Of a DNA stretch of 64,000 bases, positions 53,476-64,000 are shown one piece after another; positions within the stretch are counted from its first letter, which is position 1; every line of letters begins with the position of its first letter. The position numbers and the translations under genes were made by a program. The stretch is from Cephalothrix simula. Taxonomy: Eukaryota; Nemertea; Palaeonemertea; Archinemertea; Cephalotrichidae. The stretch is from the NCBI GenBank assembly GCA_035591015.1, contig JAXIUW010000007.1:124001-188000 (forward strand), given 5' to 3'. The notes below the pieces were generated by a model that made no database searches, was not told the origin of the DNA, and was given only the letters and a program-made list of their open reading frames with translations.

Positions 53476-53544
53476 GTTGTGTGAGTGAAGCAATACACCG
53501 CACATAGTGTGGTGGTGGGTTTAATTGAAACCAAAAAATTTGCG

Positions 53545-55269
53545 ATGAGTTTTTCAATAGGTACCAACATAGCTGCCGAGAATACACTGCGTAATCTTGA
53601 GCAAACCGATAATAAACTAAGTAAGTCTTTAGAGCGGCTATCTTCAGGCAAGCGTTTGAATAGCGCAGCTGATAATCCGGCAGCATTTGTGATTGCAGAA
53701 CGCATAGATGGCCAGCGTACGTACACTGATGAGGCAATCAGAAACACAACGGCCTCAATCGCCATGATGCAGATGGCCGATGCCACTTTAGGCGAAGTCA
53801 GTAATCTGTTGTTAGCTTTGCGTCGTGTAGCTGTTCATGCTGGCAATGAGGGGGCAAATGATCAGCTGATGCTACAATCTGATCAGTTTGAAGTTGACAA
53901 TATTCTTGATGCTATTGATCGTATATCTAACACCCACTATGGCAGTCAGGTGCTGTTTGATGGTAGTAACTCGGTTAGTGGCGTGGCCGTGGGCGAAGGT
54001 TTAGAGTATCTAAGAGCGTTGCCTTCAACTAAGCCATCGGGTTCTTCGGGCTATGCGGTAGATATAACTCAGTCGGCAACTAAATCAGAAAAAAAGGCTT
54101 TGCGACCGATAAGGCTTGAAGATGTTGGACTAGGTGCCTCAGGCCCCGTATACATAGAAATTAGCCTCGCCGAAGCAGGTCGTAACATGTTTTTTAGCAC
54201 CGGCAGTCATGCTGACCGCAAGGTTATTGATGGCATATTAAAAAGCTATCAGGTAAAGCCTTCGCCAGAGGCAAAGGTAAATGCCGAAAAACAACTGCAA
54301 AGCTATATCAAGTACAGGTTAACCGAATTAAGCGAGCTTTCTGGTCTTAATTTAGACTTTGCACTAGAAGATATTGGCGGTGATTCAGGGTCTTTGTTGG
54401 TGGTGAGGCATCGCAAATATGGTTCTAAGAATACTTTTCAGGTGGGCGGAAACACTCCCGGTGTTCTGAATGATAGTATTTCTGTAATTGAAAGCCCCGA
54501 GCTGGGCAAAGATATTATGGGCAGAATTGGCGGCGAAGCTGGCATAGGCGATGGTACGGTGCTTACCGTTCCAGAAAACGGCAGTCCAGTTGAGGGGTTA
54601 TCAATACGCTTTGAGCCGCAAAAGCGCATTAGGCAAGAAGTTGTGCCTACAAAAATCTTTAATGAAGATGGCGAGCTAATAGATAACCCGGCATTGGCCG
54701 AATATGAAGAGCTAATCCGCAGCACAGCGGTTAGGCCGATTGAGGTTATCTATGGTGACGAGCAAGTAGAATACAAACTAGAAGTGACTGAAGACGTCAG
54801 CGAAGGCGTAGAGGGTTATGTGCACGTAGATCAACATGCAATTAAATTTCAGATAGACCCCACACCTCAGGGCGTAACTAGTATTTCTTTGTCAAACATC
54901 AGAACTGAAGAGCTAGCCCAGCGCATCAACAATTTGTCAGGCTTTACTAGCCTGCGTGATGTTGATGTAACCAGCGCTCAAGGTGCAGAAGATGCTTTGG
55001 CCTTAACCGATGCTGCTATAGATCAAATCTCTGAATTACGGGGCAGCATAGGTGCTTTGCAGCGTAATACCCTAGAGCCTAATCAATCTAATCTGCAAAC
55101 GGATAGTGCAAGCCTAGCGACTACGCTATCAGCCTTACGTGATGCAGATATGGCTGCTGAAATCAGCGATTTAACTCGCTATCAGATAATGCAATCGGCA
55201 GGAATATCAATGCTAGCGCAGGCCAATCAAAACTCAGGCAATGTATTGCAGTTGCTGAAGCCTAACTAA
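53545..55269 (+). CDS. Flagellin 1
   Basis: Filament subunit (574 aa). The ATG at 53545 starts MSFSIGTNIAAENTLRNLEQ, the canonical flagellin N-terminal D0/D1, with LSSGKRLNSAADNPAAFVIAERI. The C-terminal D1/D0 (AQGAEDALALTDAAIDQISELRGSIGALQRN, ending MLAQANQNSGNVLQLLKPN) is intact. The central variable part (about residues 135-450) includes HRKYGSKNTFQVGGNT and RIGGEAGIGDGTVL, a module shared with flagellin 2 and FliD. No obvious Shine-Dalgarno is seen. Confidence 0.95.
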   Translation: MSFSIGTNIAAENTLRNLEQTDNKLSKSLERLSSGKRLNSAADNPAAFVIAERIDGQRTYTDEAIRNTTASIAMMQMADATLGEVSNLLLALRRVAVHAGNEGANDQLMLQSDQFEVDNILDAIDRISNTHYGSQVLFDGSNSVSGVAVGEGLEYLRALPSTKPSGSSGYAVDITQSATKSEKKALRPIRLEDVGLGASGPVYIEISLAEAGRNMFFSTGSHADRKVIDGILKSYQVKPSPEAKVNAEKQLQSYIKYRLTELSELSGLNLDFALEDIGGDSGSLLVVRHRKYGSKNTFQVGGNTPGVLNDSISVIESPELGKDIMGRIGGEAGIGDGTVLTVPENGSPVEGLSIRFEPQKRIRQEVVPTKIFNEDGELIDNPALAEYEELIRSTAVRPIEVIYGDEQVEYKLEVTEDVSEGVEGYVHVDQHAIKFQIDPTPQGVTSISLSNIRTEELAQRINNLSGFTSLRDVDVTSAQGAEDALALTDAAIDQISELRGSIGALQRNTLEPNQSNLQTDSASLATTLSALRDADMAAEISDLTRYQIMQSAGISMLAQANQNSGNVLQLLKPN

Positions 55270-55809: not shown

Positions 55810-58800
55810 ATGGCAGAAATTAGCGCAGATAAGCCCACATCTGTGGAGCTTCCGACTAAATCTTTAAAAAAGACCGCCTTGCCGCAAGATGATGGTCCGC
55901 CACGCATGGATTCCGTTATGGCTTCTGTAACGGGGTTCAATATGCAGGGGCTTATTAATGACATCATCAAGGTTGAGCAACGCCGAATAGTGCCCGTAGA
56001 AGAGCGCCGACAAGATGTTCTAGCCGAGATGAGATCTTACAAAATTCTGCAAGAGGCTCTAGCAGATCTCAATACCAAAGCTGAAGCTATCGCCAATAAA
56101 GATGACTGGAATTTGATGAGGATCGAATCTAGCAATCAAGAAGTCTTATTGGCCAGCCAGTTTGGCACTCCTAAGACCGGCAATTATACGGTGTTGGTTG
56201 AGCAGTTAGCTCTTAACCATCAGCTTGGCTCGCAGATGTATGCTGAAAACAATACTGTAATTGGTGAGGGTACGGTAGTAATTAACGTTGATGAAGAAGA
56301 GTTCAAAATCAATATTGACAGCAATAACAACACCCTAAAAGGCTTGGCTAGCGCAATAAATAATGCTACTGAAAAAGTTAGAGCCAGCGTAATTAATACC
56401 GGCGAAACTGACACACCGTATCAGTTTATCTTGACCAGCACAGAGTCTGGTGAAACAGGGCGCATGAATGTTGAGGTTAGTTTGAGGGGTGGCGAAGAAC
56501 CATTTTTTGGGAATACTATCAGCAAAGCCAGCGACTGGAGCGGCGTACCTTACGAAGCCCGCAAGCGTGATGATGGCGAGGCAACTACATCAACCGCAGT
56601 GGTGCGCAGTTCTGGCACGTACACTGGCGATAGCAATAATATGTTTACCTTTGAGGCCGTTGATGATGGTGCCGTAGCAGGCGATTATCCTTTAACGGTG
56701 CGCTGGAAAGATGAACAGGGTCGCTCTGGTAAGTTTAACTTAGATAAGTTTAGTTATGCTCCGGGCTCACCCATAGATATTGCTGATGGCGTACAGGTGG
56801 CCTTTAGCTCTGGAGAACTAGTTGGAGGTGAAAAATTCAGTATTAGTGCTAAATCAGCCAGAAATCCTAGCTGGTGGGAATCTGGAGAAGATGGCAAAAG
56901 TGCTATTTCTCAGCCAACCCTTTGGTACGATGGTGCGTTGTCTACAGATATCAGCATGCCCGATTTTGAGATTGCTGGCGAATATAAAGGCTCTGATAAA
57001 GCAAAATATACTTTTACCGTTAGCGGCACTGGTCAGGTTGGCGAGGCCGATGACTTAACGCTTAACTGGACTAAAAACTATGAGGGCAAAGATGCCGCTC
57101 CATGGATTAGTAAAAGCGAAAACTCGGGCAGCATAAACGTTGGTCGTGGCTACAGACCGGGGCGTAAGTTAGCAATTGATGAGGGACTAAGAATAGCCCT
57201 TCCCGATGGAGTGCTTGTGAACAATGCTCAGGCTTCATTTACCGCCAATCCACGCCAGTTAGATGCGAACTGGTGGTTGCCTGATGAAGAAAGAGGTATT
57301 CCACCCAAAGTAACCGGGATTAATCAGTTTGTGGCTCCTGAAGACTATCTTGAAAATCCTTTTGATGCTCCGATGGTTGAGTTTCCTCAAGAGATAGAAG
57401 ATCTTCAAGAGAGTACCTCACTGCCCTTAGTTGGTGGAAGCTACACCGGCGACAAAAACCGTGAGTACACCTTTAATATTGAAGGCACAGGCACCGTAGG
57501 CATAACTAATAGGTTAAGGGTGCGTTGGTCAGATGATGCGGGCAATGAGGGTGTGTTTAACATTGGTAAGAGCTATAAACTTGGTCAAGAACTAAAGTTG
57601 CCTGACGGCATTAATGTTAGTTTTGGCTATGGCCGTGTGTATGATAGCGATTCATTTACTTTTGATGTTACGGCTTCTAGCATTCAGCCACCTCAAGATG
57701 CACGGATAAGGCTGGGCTCTAGTGGCCCCGGTACCGGTACGGCAATTAGTAGCTCATCAAATGAGTTTTACAATGCCATTGAAGGCTTAAAGCTAGAGGT
57801 GCTTAAGCCCAGTGATGAGGTAATACGCATTAACGTAGACTTTGACCGTGAATTAGCTAGTGAAAAGCTGGGTGCGTTTACGTCATCTTATAATCAATTT
57901 GTGGCTTTATCTAAAGAACTCAGTAAGTTTGACCCCAGCACAGATACTGCGGGGCCTTTGTTGGGGTCTTCAGACTTGATGGGCATTCAAGAAGAATTGT
58001 CAATGATTATTACCAATCCAATTCCAGAGCTAAGCACAAAAACTAATATGTTGGCCTCAATTGGTCTTGATTTATCACGCAAAGCAGATCTTAAGGTTAA
58101 TGACAAAGTACTTGGTGATAAATTAACCACGGTATTCAATGATGTAGGCAAAATATTTTATTCACGAGGCATTACTGACAATGACGCCATTCAGTTTGCC
58201 GGCATGGATAGCACAACCGAAGAGTCATTAGCGGGCTACTCTGTAAATGTAACCAGAGTCGCCAAAAAGGGCTATTTTGAATCAGGGGCATTGCCGGGCA
58301 TGATTAAAATTGATGGCAGCAATAATAGCTTTAGAATGAATCTTAATGGTCAAGATTCAGGCAATTTAAGCATTGCGCCGGGGCTTTATAGCCTTGATGA
58401 ATACGCTCAGGCCTTGTCTGGAGCTATTGGCGAAGACAAAACCATTGGTAGCTTGGGCGCAGTTGTACAGCCTGAAGGGCAAGCACTGCGCATAACCTCT
58501 AATGTAGCCGGCTCACGCAGTGTTGTTGGGGTAAGCCAAGGTAACTCAAATAATATGCCGCCGGGTTTTGGAACGGGTATAACTAACCCCGGGCAAGATG
58601 TAGCCGGTACCATTGGCGGCGAAGCTGCTCAGGGCATTGGCAACCTGCTGCGAGGCAAAGATAGTAGCCGTGCCAAAGGCTTACGACTGCTGGTGCGGGT
58701 TACAGATGAACAGCTGGGCACAAATAACTCTAGGGCTAATGTTAAGGTTGTGCGTGGTGTTGGCAGCAAGATGAATAATTATCTTAGCAATTTACTGCAA

Positions 58801-59037
58801 CCTCAAGATGGTGGACTGGCTATTCTTAACAATAACTATGCTGAAGCGATTGATAGCATAGACGAACAGATTAAATCTATTAACGAACGCATTCAAAATA
58901 AAAAGAAATCTCTTATTCAGAGGTTCTCACGGCTAGAAACCAACCTTGCTTCGCTCAAGGAGCAACAAAGATACCTTTCGTCACAGTTGGCTAATCTGCC
59001 CAAAGCCGGCGGAGGCTCACCCATTCCGGGTCTATAG
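55810..59037 (+). CDS. fliD: Flagellar filament cap protein FliD, very long
   Basis: FliD caps the filament and guides flagellin folding. The N-terminal FliD domain has MASVTGFNMQGLINDIIKVEQRRI (from residue 37), and the C-terminal one ends in coiled helices (YAEAIDSIDEQIKSINERIQNKKKSLIQRFSRLE). The protein is 1075 aa; usual lengths are 450-700. The extra part contains three tandem repeats (266-356, 388-489, 540-631) sharing the order G-x-YTGD..YTF, RW, G...G.G...SF.F, ANPxWW-like. A Flagellin_IN-like segment (residues 810-970, with GTIGGEAAQGIGNLL) is shared with the flagellins. Confidence 0.93.
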   Translation: MAEISADKPTSVELPTKSLKKTALPQDDGPPRMDSVMASVTGFNMQGLINDIIKVEQRRIVPVEERRQDVLAEMRSYKILQEALADLNTKAEAIANKDDWNLMRIESSNQEVLLASQFGTPKTGNYTVLVEQLALNHQLGSQMYAENNTVIGEGTVVINVDEEEFKINIDSNNNTLKGLASAINNATEKVRASVINTGETDTPYQFILTSTESGETGRMNVEVSLRGGEEPFFGNTISKASDWSGVPYEARKRDDGEATTSTAVVRSSGTYTGDSNNMFTFEAVDDGAVAGDYPLTVRWKDEQGRSGKFNLDKFSYAPGSPIDIADGVQVAFSSGELVGGEKFSISAKSARNPSWWESGEDGKSAISQPTLWYDGALSTDISMPDFEIAGEYKGSDKAKYTFTVSGTGQVGEADDLTLNWTKNYEGKDAAPWISKSENSGSINVGRGYRPGRKLAIDEGLRIALPDGVLVNNAQASFTANPRQLDANWWLPDEERGIPPKVTGINQFVAPEDYLENPFDAPMVEFPQEIEDLQESTSLPLVGGSYTGDKNREYTFNIEGTGTVGITNRLRVRWSDDAGNEGVFNIGKSYKLGQELKLPDGINVSFGYGRVYDSDSFTFDVTASSIQPPQDARIRLGSSGPGTGTAISSSSNEFYNAIEGLKLEVLKPSDEVIRINVDFDRELASEKLGAFTSSYNQFVALSKELSKFDPSTDTAGPLLGSSDLMGIQEELSMIITNPIPELSTKTNMLASIGLDLSRKADLKVNDKVLGDKLTTVFNDVGKIFYSRGITDNDAIQFAGMDSTTEESLAGYSVNVTRVAKKGYFESGALPGMIKIDGSNNSFRMNLNGQDSGNLSIAPGLYSLDEYAQALSGAIGEDKTIGSLGAVVQPEGQALRITSNVAGSRSVVGVSQGNSNNMPPGFGTGITNPGQDVAGTIGGEAAQGIGNLLRGKDSSRAKGLRLLVRVTDEQLGTNNSRANVKVVRGVGSKMNNYLSNLLQPQDGGLAILNNNYAEAIDSIDEQIKSINERIQNKKKSLIQRFSRLETNLASLKEQQRYLSSQLANLPKAGGGSPIPGL
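56605..57702 (+). repeat. Three tandem protein-domain repeats within fliD
   Basis: Codons 266-356, 388-489 and 540-631 encode three related domains (about 90-100 residues each). Matching pieces: SGTYTGDSNNMFTF / AGEYKGSDKAKYTF / GGSYTGDKNREYTF; then LTVRWKDEQG / LTLNWTKNYEG / LRVRWSDDAG; then IADGVQVAFSSG / IDEGLRIALPDG / LPDGINVSFGYG. The pattern suggests an Ig-like beta-sandwich. Confidence 0.8.
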
Positions 59038-59972: not shown

Positions 59973-60449
59973 ATGCAATCCTATGGAAAATACTCAAAGA
60001 TTTATCAAAAATCAGCTGCCAGTACGTTAGATCAGCGCAAGTTGATCATCATGATGTACAAAGGTGCAGTAAAGTTTTTGAGCATATCAGCCATGAAAAT
60101 GCGCGAAGGGAAGTTATATGAAGCGCATACTAGTCTGGTGCGAGGCAAAAGCATCATTGTTGAGCTGATGGCCTCATTAGACTTAGAGAAGGGCGGTGAT
60201 ATAGCCAGCAATCTGCAAAGTATCTACATTTACATCTTTAATCAGTTGATTGAGGCTAATGTCAATAAAGATGCTGAAGCGGTTGAACACGTAGTAAAGA
60301 TGTTAAAGAGTCTTTGTGAGGCGTGGCAGTCTATTGATTCAAAACAAGAAAATAGTTCTGGACGGCTATCTGTGGTAGCTCAAGGGAGTACTGCGCCTCA
60401 AGAAGTAGTTGAAGGTAATGTGTTGAAACGCCTTAAGGTTACTGGATAG
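59973..60449 (+). CDS. fliS: Flagellar export chaperone FliS, copy 1
   Basis: FliS binds flagellin C-termini before export. The helical family pattern is present: YQKSAASTLDQRKLIIMMYKGAVKFL, then HTSLVRGKSIIVELMASLD and IYIYIFNQLIEANVNKDAEAVEHVVKMLKSL. At 158 aa it carries an extra 30-residue C-terminal tail. It pairs with a second fliS 22 bp downstream. Confidence 0.9.
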   Translation: MQSYGKYSKIYQKSAASTLDQRKLIIMMYKGAVKFLSISAMKMREGKLYEAHTSLVRGKSIIVELMASLDLEKGGDIASNLQSIYIYIFNQLIEANVNKDAEAVEHVVKMLKSLCEAWQSIDSKQENSSGRLSVVAQGSTAPQEVVEGNVLKRLKVTG

Positions 60450-60471: not shown

Positions 60472-60882
60472 ATGCGATCACCTTATCAGGCTTATCAGCA
60501 AACGAATGTTAAAACCTCAGATCAGTTACAGCTGATAGTAATGCTGTACGAGGGTGCCATTCGCTTTGCTCGGAAAGGCCAAGAAAAAATTGTATTGGGC
60601 GATGTAGAAGGAGCCCATAACTACATTATCAGAAGCAGAGAAATCGTCTTAGAGCTGCTTAACACGCTACGCACCAATGATACTGGCGGCGTAGGGCAGA
60701 ATCTAAAAAGATTGTATGTATATCTGCATAAACGCTTAATTGAAGCCAATCTGACTAAGGATGAGAAAATTCTTGATGAAGCTATAGGGATTTTACTATC
60801 GCTTAGAGATGGCTGGGCAGAATTAAAAAAGAGGCAGAATAATCAGCTTGTAGAAAGCAAAAAAGTAAGCCTCAAAATGTAG
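60472..60882 (+). CDS. fliS: Flagellar export chaperone FliS, copy 2
   Basis: Second FliS (136 aa), with YQQTNVKTSDQLQLIVMLYEGAIRFARKG, HNYIIRSREIVLELLNTL and LYVYLHKRLIEANLTKDEKILDEAIGILLSL. GGGAG precedes the ATG. The two FliS proteins are clearly related yet quite divergent, suggesting different client flagellins rather than a recent duplication. Confidence 0.92.
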   Translation: MRSPYQAYQQTNVKTSDQLQLIVMLYEGAIRFARKGQEKIVLGDVEGAHNYIIRSREIVLELLNTLRTNDTGGVGQNLKRLYVYLHKRLIEANLTKDEKILDEAIGILLSLRDGWAELKKRQNNQLVESKKVSLKM

Positions 60883-61277: not shown

Positions 61278-62741
61278 ATGGGAATATTAGTTGTAAATAC
61301 CAATACAAGCGCTATTAATGCGCATCGTAATTTATTAAATGTGAATACTGAATTAAACCGTACTTTTGAGCATCTATCATCAGGTGAACGCTTAGTGCGT
61401 GCGGCCGATGGCCCAGCCAGCATAATGATTTCTGAGCATATTCGTTCGCAGGCGGTATCAGTTGAGCAGGCTATTAGGAACTCGGAGACTTCGGTTTCTA
61501 TGGTGCAAACCACCGAGGCAGCATTGCAAGAAGTATCACAAATGTTAGTGGGCATCAGGCGTTTGGCCATTCATGCTGCCAACGAAGGTGCTAATGACGA
61601 ATTGATGTTAGAGGCTGATCAACAAGAGGTTGATAACTTAGTGGCCTCAATAGACAGAGTCAGCCAGTTTTCTAACTTTGGTTCTAAGCCTCTTTTAGAT
61701 GGCAGCAATGGTGTTACCGGAATGGTGGCCGGCGATGGATTGAGCTTTGTTAAAGCTAATGAAGATACTATATCTTCGCCAGATGAAGGCTATGCGGTTA
61801 ACGTAACACAGGGGGCTACTCGCGCTAAATTAGTGGGTAAAACTGCGCTATCACGTGAGGTGATTGACCAAGGGGCAGAGCTATCTGTTCAATCTATGGG
61901 CAGAATTGCGTCTTATACTACCCAGCCGGGTGAAGACCCCAAAACCATCATTAGGCGCCTGCAAAACTCTGTTAATAGTAATGGTATGGACATTACGGTT
62001 AGCCTTGATTATAGCGATATTAGTGGCGACCCCAAGCTGGTGCTAGAGCATAATGAATACGGCTCAGAGCATAAGTTTTTGGTTACATCTAACATTGCCG
62101 GTGTTTTGGCTGATGATGTTAAGGTGCCGATGATTGTTGATAATGGCCTTGACATAGAAGGCACAATTGGTGGCGAGTTGGCTTTTGGAAGGGGCAGAGT
62201 GCTGCGTGGCGCAGAAGGAATTGATGCTTCAGGGGTAGAGGTACTCTATTCAGGCGAAGTTCCGGCAGACCCAAAAGAGCCAGTTGGTCACGTTAATGTT
62301 ACTCAGCGGTCGCTAATCTTCCAGATTGGTCCAGATGCGGGGCAAAAAGTATCTGTGGCTATTGATACGGTCAATTCACGCCGCTTGGGTATTAATGTAG
62401 ACAACGATTCTGGCTTCAAGAGCGTCTTTGAGATTGACGTTCGTAATGCTCAGGGAGCATCTGATGCGGTCAAGGTTGTTGATAAAGCCTTAGATGACCT
62501 TAACTCTATACGAGGTCAGCTGGGTGCTATTCAGCGCAATTCGCTAGAGTCAAACATTAGGAACTTGCGCATTAGTTACGAAGAAATGATGAATGCTGAT
62601 TCCGTACTTCGTGATGCAGATATGGCTGAAGAAATCAGCAAGTTAACTCGTGAGCAGATTATTGCTCAATCGGCCATGGCAGTGCTGGGGCAGGCAAATC
62701 AGACGTCGCAAAACGTTTTGAGACTACTCAACCAGCAGTAA
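61278..62741 (+). CDS. Flagellin 2
   Basis: Second filament subunit (487 aa) with an AAGGGAG ribosome-binding site. N-terminal MGILVVNTNTSAINAHRNLLNVNTELNRTF and LSSGERLVRAADGPASIMISEHI are D0/D1; the C-terminus LRDADMAEEISKLTREQIIAQSAMAVLGQANQTSQNVLRLL is complete. The central domain has HNEYGSEHKFLVTSNIAGVL and TIGGELAFGRGRVL, then LIFQIGPDAGQ. It differs a lot from flagellin 1, notably in length and the middle part. Confidence 0.95.
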   Translation: MGILVVNTNTSAINAHRNLLNVNTELNRTFEHLSSGERLVRAADGPASIMISEHIRSQAVSVEQAIRNSETSVSMVQTTEAALQEVSQMLVGIRRLAIHAANEGANDELMLEADQQEVDNLVASIDRVSQFSNFGSKPLLDGSNGVTGMVAGDGLSFVKANEDTISSPDEGYAVNVTQGATRAKLVGKTALSREVIDQGAELSVQSMGRIASYTTQPGEDPKTIIRRLQNSVNSNGMDITVSLDYSDISGDPKLVLEHNEYGSEHKFLVTSNIAGVLADDVKVPMIVDNGLDIEGTIGGELAFGRGRVLRGAEGIDASGVEVLYSGEVPADPKEPVGHVNVTQRSLIFQIGPDAGQKVSVAIDTVNSRRLGINVDNDSGFKSVFEIDVRNAQGASDAVKVVDKALDDLNSIRGQLGAIQRNSLESNIRNLRISYEEMMNADSVLRDADMAEEISKLTREQIIAQSAMAVLGQANQTSQNVLRLLNQQ

Positions 62742-62777
62742 TTTACCAATGAAAATTGGGTATTAATTGAGGTTAAT

Positions 62778-64000
62778 ATGGCAACTATACTAACAAGAAA
62801 TAATGAGGTCGTTCTGCCCACTGTGGCTAGTCCGTCAGAAAGTTGCTTGTTTACCAGTCCCCCGGGATGGCTACGCTTTGAAAGCGGAGCTCTGAATACA
62901 GAAAAATTGCTCGGCAATTTAGAGACCATAGTTTCTGTTTTGCAGACGGCACATTCTGGGGTACATGGCGCTCATTCGCTGATTGAAAGTACCAAGAATG
63001 ATTTACATGATGCTTGGGAAAAGCGTGGTGATAGTCCAGTGCCAACACATGAACTGGCTAACTTGCTTAAAGAAAGACTAAGCCGAATTGATGACTTAGC
63101 TCGTAATTGTAGCTTTCATGGACGAGGTTTGCTTAATGGGCAGTCTGGGGTGGTTAGTGATAGTAACTGCTTTGCCCGTGGCGGACCAAAAACTGAAACT
63201 AGCACCGAGCGTGGTTACTTGATCTACATAGAAAGCCGTCCAGAGGTAGCCAAGATTGTAGGTGCTGCACCGCTGAACGCTGCTGATATAAGCTCTGAAA
63301 ACGAGGTGGTGGTTGTTGAAAATGGAAACTTGGTCTGCCATACGTTGGAGGGCAAGCCTAGTCCAGAGCAGTTTGTTATTGGTCTACAGACTGCGCTGAA
63401 CGAAGCCCAAATTGACATTGACGTCATGATGGATGGGCAGCGGCGATTGGTGTTGAAGCATCGTAATTATGGTTCACGGTTTAGATTTAAGGCGATGAGT
63501 CGCAATACAAAAATTATATCTAACGAACCCGGTCGCCTAGAGTGGAGCCAGCCCGGCGCTGATGTTAAAGGCAGCATTAATGGCGAGCCAGCTCTTGGCA
63601 ATGGAACTATGCTGATTGGTTGTGATGACAACCCGACTACAGCTGAGTTAGTGCTTTTATGGGATGAAACGCTAGAGCCTAAGTCAAAAAAATACTGCCG
63701 AGTGCAACAGAACGGCTTGGTGTTTCAAGAGAATATAGACCCAAAGTTACCATGGCGCAGAATAAGTTTGCCTAATCTGCAAATCAATAAGTTTGGGTTA
63801 TGGCAGCACTCACGCCACCGAACGCTAGGCTCATTAAGAGCCGTTAACTGGTTAGATGTGCAGTTTTCAGTAAGGGCGTTGTTTTTAGCTGAAAACGAAT
63901 TACAAAGTTGGAAAAATAAATTGGCGCAGTGGATATCTAATTATCGCCAACAAGCTATGGATTGCTTGGCCAATCTCTACGATGCCGATGATTGTGGCGG
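62778..64000 (+). CDS. Divergent flagellin-like protein lacking typical D0, 3' end outside window
   Basis: The frame opens at ATG 62778 (GAGG five nt before) and has no stop through 407 codons to the window edge. It is collinear with flagellin 2: VLQTAHSGVHGAHSLIES...LLNGQSGVVSD matches its D1 segment, KHRNYGSRFRFKAMS and GSINGEPALGNGTML match the central module, LVFQENIDP matches LIFQIGPDA, and RALFLAENELQSWKNKLAQW matches the C-terminal D1 helix. But the first 55 residues carry Pro/Trp and Cys and none of the N-terminal D0 signature. It is only 36 bp after flagellin 2. Function unknown. Confidence 0.7.
   Translation, partial: MATILTRNNEVVLPTVASPSESCLFTSPPGWLRFESGALNTEKLLGNLETIVSVLQTAHSGVHGAHSLIESTKNDLHDAWEKRGDSPVPTHELANLLKERLSRIDDLARNCSFHGRGLLNGQSGVVSDSNCFARGGPKTETSTERGYLIYIESRPEVAKIVGAAPLNAADISSENEVVVVENGNLVCHTLEGKPSPEQFVIGLQTALNEAQIDIDVMMDGQRRLVLKHRNYGSRFRFKAMSRNTKIISNEPGRLEWSQPGADVKGSINGEPALGNGTMLIGCDDNPTTAELVLLWDETLEPKSKKYCRVQQNGLVFQENIDPKLPWRRISLPNLQINKFGLWQHSRHRTLGSLRAVNWLDVQFSVRALFLAENELQSWKNKLAQWISNYRQQAMDCLANLYDADDCG

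Follow-up and report, generated by a model that had tools for sequence, protein, structure and literature searches.

The D0 domain of flagellin is commonly held to be necessary for both export and polymerisation. The cell-surface flagellin of Sphingomonas sp. A1 (2zbi, 3k8v, 3k8w) is one of the closest known systems to the protein described here, but differs from it: its crystals are probably of trimmed constructs of a protein with a natural D0, as the entry titles N20C20 and N20C45 hint. Here we describe XA, a flagellin paralogue gene at the downstream edge of a 64,000-nucleotide stretch of DNA (the window; contig JAXIUW010000007.1 of GenBank assembly GCA_035591015.1, deposited under Cephalothrix simula, here G000:C1:124001-188000; assembly size 8.6 Mb in 580 contigs). 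XA differs from bacterial flagellin (FliC/Hag; Flagellin_N plus Flagellin_C) in having no D0 at either end, and its D1 domain has ceased to exceed the outer module in conservation, as that of flagellin does.

The nearest functional precedent for XA appears to be the Vibrio pair FlaE/FlaF. FlaE/FlaF are described as lying outside the filament, being secreted through FlhA, binding exopolysaccharide and differing in D1 contact residues (PMC6692518). Like XA, they are flagellin paralogues encoded beside flagellin genes (flaE in an operon with flaD); their changed D1 may have a parallel in XA, whose D1 has lost its extra conservation. A non-filament role is reported as shown for them and is proposed for XA; export and polysaccharide binding are shown for them and putative for XA, which is likened to them by description, not by sequence. 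EspA of enteropathogenic E. coli resembles XA in another way, as PMC1084347 proposes it to be a flagellin relative without D0. According to the same paper, EspA is also devoid of D3 and of the N-terminal part, and it builds a filament of its own, whereas XA keeps both halves of D1 and the outer module.

XA has an open frame throughout and is predicted to keep the D1 fold and the outer module. The initial annotation had read an open frame from ATG 62778 to the window edge, co-oriented with and nearly adjacent to a flagellin gene, and all of this held: the frame (62778..64000, plus strand) continues for 82 bases beyond the window and, completed from the assembly (L009:79-1383), encodes 434 amino acids. 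Flagellin F2 ends at 62741, 36 bases before the ATG, and GAGG (62769..62772, plus strand), a likely ribosome-binding site as read from the sequence, lies 5 bases before it. Codon-position GC matches the pattern of the neighbouring genes. Domain boundaries were carried over by alignment from a structure model of an orthologue. By these, residues 1-35 (62778..62882), mostly of low confidence in the orthologue model, take the place of D0; the N-terminal D1 helices span approximately residues 41-82 and 92-110 (62898..63107), the outer module, common to true flagellins of the clade, approximately residues 125-332 (63150..63773), and the C-terminal D1 helix approximately residues 358-399 (63849..63974), all on the plus strand. 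Beyond this last helix there are a linker and another, short helix, and no C-terminal D0. Residues 45-409 of the orthologue model matched flagellin structures. When a profile of 32 XA proteins was run against the Protein Data Bank, most of its matches to full-length flagellin chains began near residue 50. Alignments of XA to the flagellins F1-F5 of the assembly likewise began near the start of D1, with 21-24% identity (24% to F2), in agreement with the earlier reading that D1 and the central module align in order with F2 at low identity.

The D0 helices were missing from both ends of XA. We built D0-N and D0-C profiles from SAR324 flagellins and applied them to 20 of the 26 XA copies known here and to 20 control flagellins drawn from the building set. 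The D0-N profile gave 83.6-103.2 bits on 20/20 flagellins, and none of the 20 XA proteins scored above 0.6 bits; the D0-C profile gave 60.5-99.2 bits on 20/20 flagellins and at most 2.6 bits on the same XA proteins. Nor was a D0 hidden by a frameshift in the flanks read: in three-frame translations of up to 400 bases beside 20 XA genes, the best upstream D0-N score was 3.1 bits (flanks shorter in G048, 256 bases; G046, 391; G043, 235) and the best downstream D0-C score 3.5 bits (shorter in G002a, 261 bases; G004, 63; G044, 27). Strong matches of the opposite kind, D0-N downstream in 7/20 and D0-C upstream in 7/20 and weakly in an eighth, fit neighbouring flagellin genes. The loss of the N-terminal D0 noticed in the initial annotation is thus borne out, with neither a complete D0 nor a frameshift in the flanks to explain the N-terminus. 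The C-terminal helix that had been aligned with flagellin is real; it is a D1 helix only, and the C-terminal D0 is absent too. Pfam searches gave no match for the part of XA in the window at E<=1 or for the full protein at E<=0.1; among 19 members of the family, 11 had a weak Flagellin_N match (best 2.6e-5).

XA represents a genuine family of flagellin paralogues that has long been conserved in bacteria of the SAR324 type. Four relatives were found in a first search, and an XA profile search of 5.8 billion proteins, which relies on shared words, returned 28 at E<=1e-60 (396-737 bits). Eight XA loci were located in seven genomes titled SAR324, Lambdaproteobacteria or Deltaproteobacteria. In a survey of 52 genomes of the SAR324 class, cut at E 1e-70 and hence liable to overlook weaker genes of the XA kind, scores of 384 bits or more were reached at 24 places in 20 genomes, 18 of them sequences that had built the profile and 6 independent of it. 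A protein of G030 (279 bits) was judged D0-less by eye, giving XA in 20-21 of the 52 genomes. The remaining listed places (275 bits or less) were flagellins where inspected, apart from rows resembling a second paralogue, XC, described below; Flagellin_N was found in 52/52. Three subtypes (XA-I, XA-II and XA-III) have in common a C-terminal segment whose Met is invariant (19/19). Four genomes had two XA places each (G002: C31, C515; G046: C86, C62; G047: C171, C276; G048: C87, C1), which in metagenome-assembled genomes could possibly reflect mixed bins; one stop codon was counted in the matches at G046:C62 and G048:C1. In a careful tree, built on the columns of D1 and the outer module, a branch with support of 100/100 set the 24 XA rows apart on one side, and in a quick tree the support was 95. 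Both trees are unrooted, and 17 of 95 rows were dropped beforehand as partial or redundant. A title- and abstract-level literature search found no published account of a D0-less flagellin family in SAR324.

One pair of relatives shows purifying selection on XA. For G029 and G028, dN was 0.17 and dS 1.15-1.33, giving omega of 0.13-0.145; the flagellin beside XA in the same genomes had omega of 0.072-0.075. A second pair, of XA-II (G048/G046), was left unused because dS was saturated (NG86 -1, ML 15.9); in its flagellin control the ML value of 0.68 disagrees with the NG86 value of 0.033. The copy in the window may be less constrained than its orthologues are. Its branch length was 1.7 versus a median end branch of 0.39; of the 67 positions that do not vary among the other 31 sequences it keeps 51, and it agrees at 14-21% of sites whose commonest residue is below 70%. 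Six other rows, some with near copies in the set, keep 96-100% of their invariant positions.

The D1 domain of XA has lost the extra conservation that marks D1 of true flagellins. The N-terminal part of D1 was more conserved than the outer module in 71/72 flagellin pairs (for F2, 72% vs 52%) and in only 23/83 XA pairs; these pairs are non-independent and do not include the window copy. Values for D1 vs the outer module were 50 vs 56% in XA-I, 49 vs 48% in XA-II and 40 vs 44% in XA-III. Such a missing excess is expected if D1 has been freed from the demands of packing contacts and the outer module is still kept. XA is unlikely to be a filament subunit, because both D0 helices are gone and the excess conservation of D1 is lost.

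We tentatively propose that XA is a conserved, coreless flagellin paralogue that is exported, works outside the filament as a soluble or surface-bound protein, and acts through its outer module. Lacking both D0 helices, and hence the means by which flagellin builds the core of the filament, XA would not be packed as a subunit. It might instead be exported by the flagellar export apparatus, perhaps with its disordered N-terminus as the signal, and then be soluble or sit at the cell surface. There the outer module may act, probably by binding glycan or matrix, as Vibrio FlaE/FlaF do. A non-filament role had been suggested in the initial annotation; it is supported together with the loss of D0, and the option of decay offered alongside it is contradicted for the family.

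Several points weigh against this proposal. Its weakest step is export in a protein that lacks the region where flagellins usually carry their signal: XA has no stretch equivalent to FliC residues 26-47, which, as PMC6337784 relates, some reports found sufficient for export, although the data of that study did not agree with those reports. Ligand binding by the outer module is a weaker, putative element; the module is common to true flagellins, so that its being kept is no sign of a new ligand. XA was not seen in 31 of the 52 genomes, all 31 of which have flagellin. The effect in D1 is a missing excess and not a strong deficit, in sequence pairs that are non-independent. A separate candidate, XA as a replacement for FlgL, was rejected: a separate FlgL is present at G000:C409 (169.1 bits, with its neighbours in the frame), and XA was absent among the 9 FlgL matches.

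Could XA instead remain cytosolic and serve as a regulator or an assembly helper, mimicking flagellin so as to retain or titrate a partner that binds D1 (FliW, a modifying enzyme or unassembled flagellin)? We consider this doubtful. The missing D0-N is the reported site of the flagellin export signal, two FliS genes lie in the same array, and FliW was found in 48/52 genomes and in the assembly itself. However, FliW occurred in 20/21 genomes with XA and in 28/31 without it, a non-discriminating distribution for which we rejected a FliW-XA link. The outer module is also kept as well as in flagellins, which would be puzzling in a decoy confined to the cytosol, and XA lacks the C-terminal D0, to which FliS binds according to the title of a reference. 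Less probable still is a minor structural subunit docked on the filament through D1 contacts, as a coat, junction or tip piece. The intact D1 fold of the model, the adjoining flagellin gene and a statement in PMC1084347 that D0-less mutant flagellins can make straight filaments of another kind all favour docking, but packing should have kept the excess conservation of D1. That XA is a decaying flagellin pseudogene is very improbable, as the long branch and lost invariant residues of the window copy are set against its open frame, neighbour-like codon-position GC and GAGG and, for the family, against orthologues, synteny, the tree and purifying selection.

XC is a second conserved flagellin paralogue family, in which a Pro-rich stretch, probably disordered, stands in for D0-N and the C-terminus is altered. 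It lies on a second contig of the same assembly (C175; L010:4133-5572, minus strand) and in relatives (L012:17662-19197, L017:18328-19797, L050:1815-3326, L051:4258-5763, L054:2257-3768, L055:2583-4097), and precedes F5 wherever the contig shows it. XB (L010:5590-6741, minus strand; 383 aa), between F4 and XC, is a strongly diverged flagellin relative with a shortened D1, for which we noticed no counterpart in those loci of relatives that were read. A paralogue of G039 (L090:1429-2856, minus strand) has no D0-N and, by eye, a D0-C-like end; it is XC-like, but the tree does not place it with the remaining XC rows. The assembly's own XB and XC, the longest rows, were dropped before the careful tree. 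In that tree neither the XC rows nor the flagellins lay on one side of a branch (flagellins: 2 changes; 39% of bootstrap trees); in the quick tree the flagellins did, with support of 98. A separate loss of D0-N in XC was given up, as XA and six XC rows stood together in 197/200 bootstrap trees. A single loss for XA and XC is possible, because placing the 31 rows that lack D0-N together on one side passes the AU test (p-AU 0.347; 74/200 bootstrap trees). It is a rather remote idea that an ancestor without D0-N gave rise to exported flagellins without a core, XA and XC, that coat the filament or form a separate extracellular D1-based assembly or adhesive layer with no central channel.

XA lies within a flagellin array that is probably broken by the assembly. 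The order on C1 is F1, FliD, FliS, FliS, F2, XA and F3, followed by the contig end. On the plus strand of the window are the true flagellin F1 (53536..55269; the mechanical open reading frame starts at an in-frame GTG at 53485), the filament cap FliD (55810..59037; 1075 aa), FliS paralogues 1 (59973..60449) and 2 (60472..60882), and the true flagellin F2 (61278..62741; Flagellin_N and Flagellin_C found), with FliD and FliS identified by Pfam search. The two differing FliS chaperone genes are in tandem with a 22-base gap. FliD carries the motif GxDxxGxIxGExAxGxG of the outer module, as do flagellins and XA, and frames of 1046-1084 aa occur in four relatives. C175 carries F4, XB, XC, F5 and a gene that we take to be mnmE, which is also found in six relatives' loci with an F5-type or neighbouring flagellin. 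C1 and C175 probably adjoin, because the relative G005 has F1, FliD, F2, XA, flagellins, XC, F5 and mnmE in this order on a single contig, and similar repeats between flagellin genes are found at the ends of both contigs (the last 1200 bases of G000:C1, in L009, and G000:C175, in L010). Upstream of 10 XA genes, no sigma-54 consensus scored above shuffles, and sigma-28 gave p of 0.03 in one gene and 0.08 in another, uncorrected for ten tries.

XA appears to be a flagellin that has been put to some use other than as a part of the propeller, and it is kept by many SAR324 bacteria. With a natural, long-kept family without D0 one could test what D1 and the outer domains achieve by themselves, whether export needs D0, and how flagellin paralogues take up jobs other than motility.
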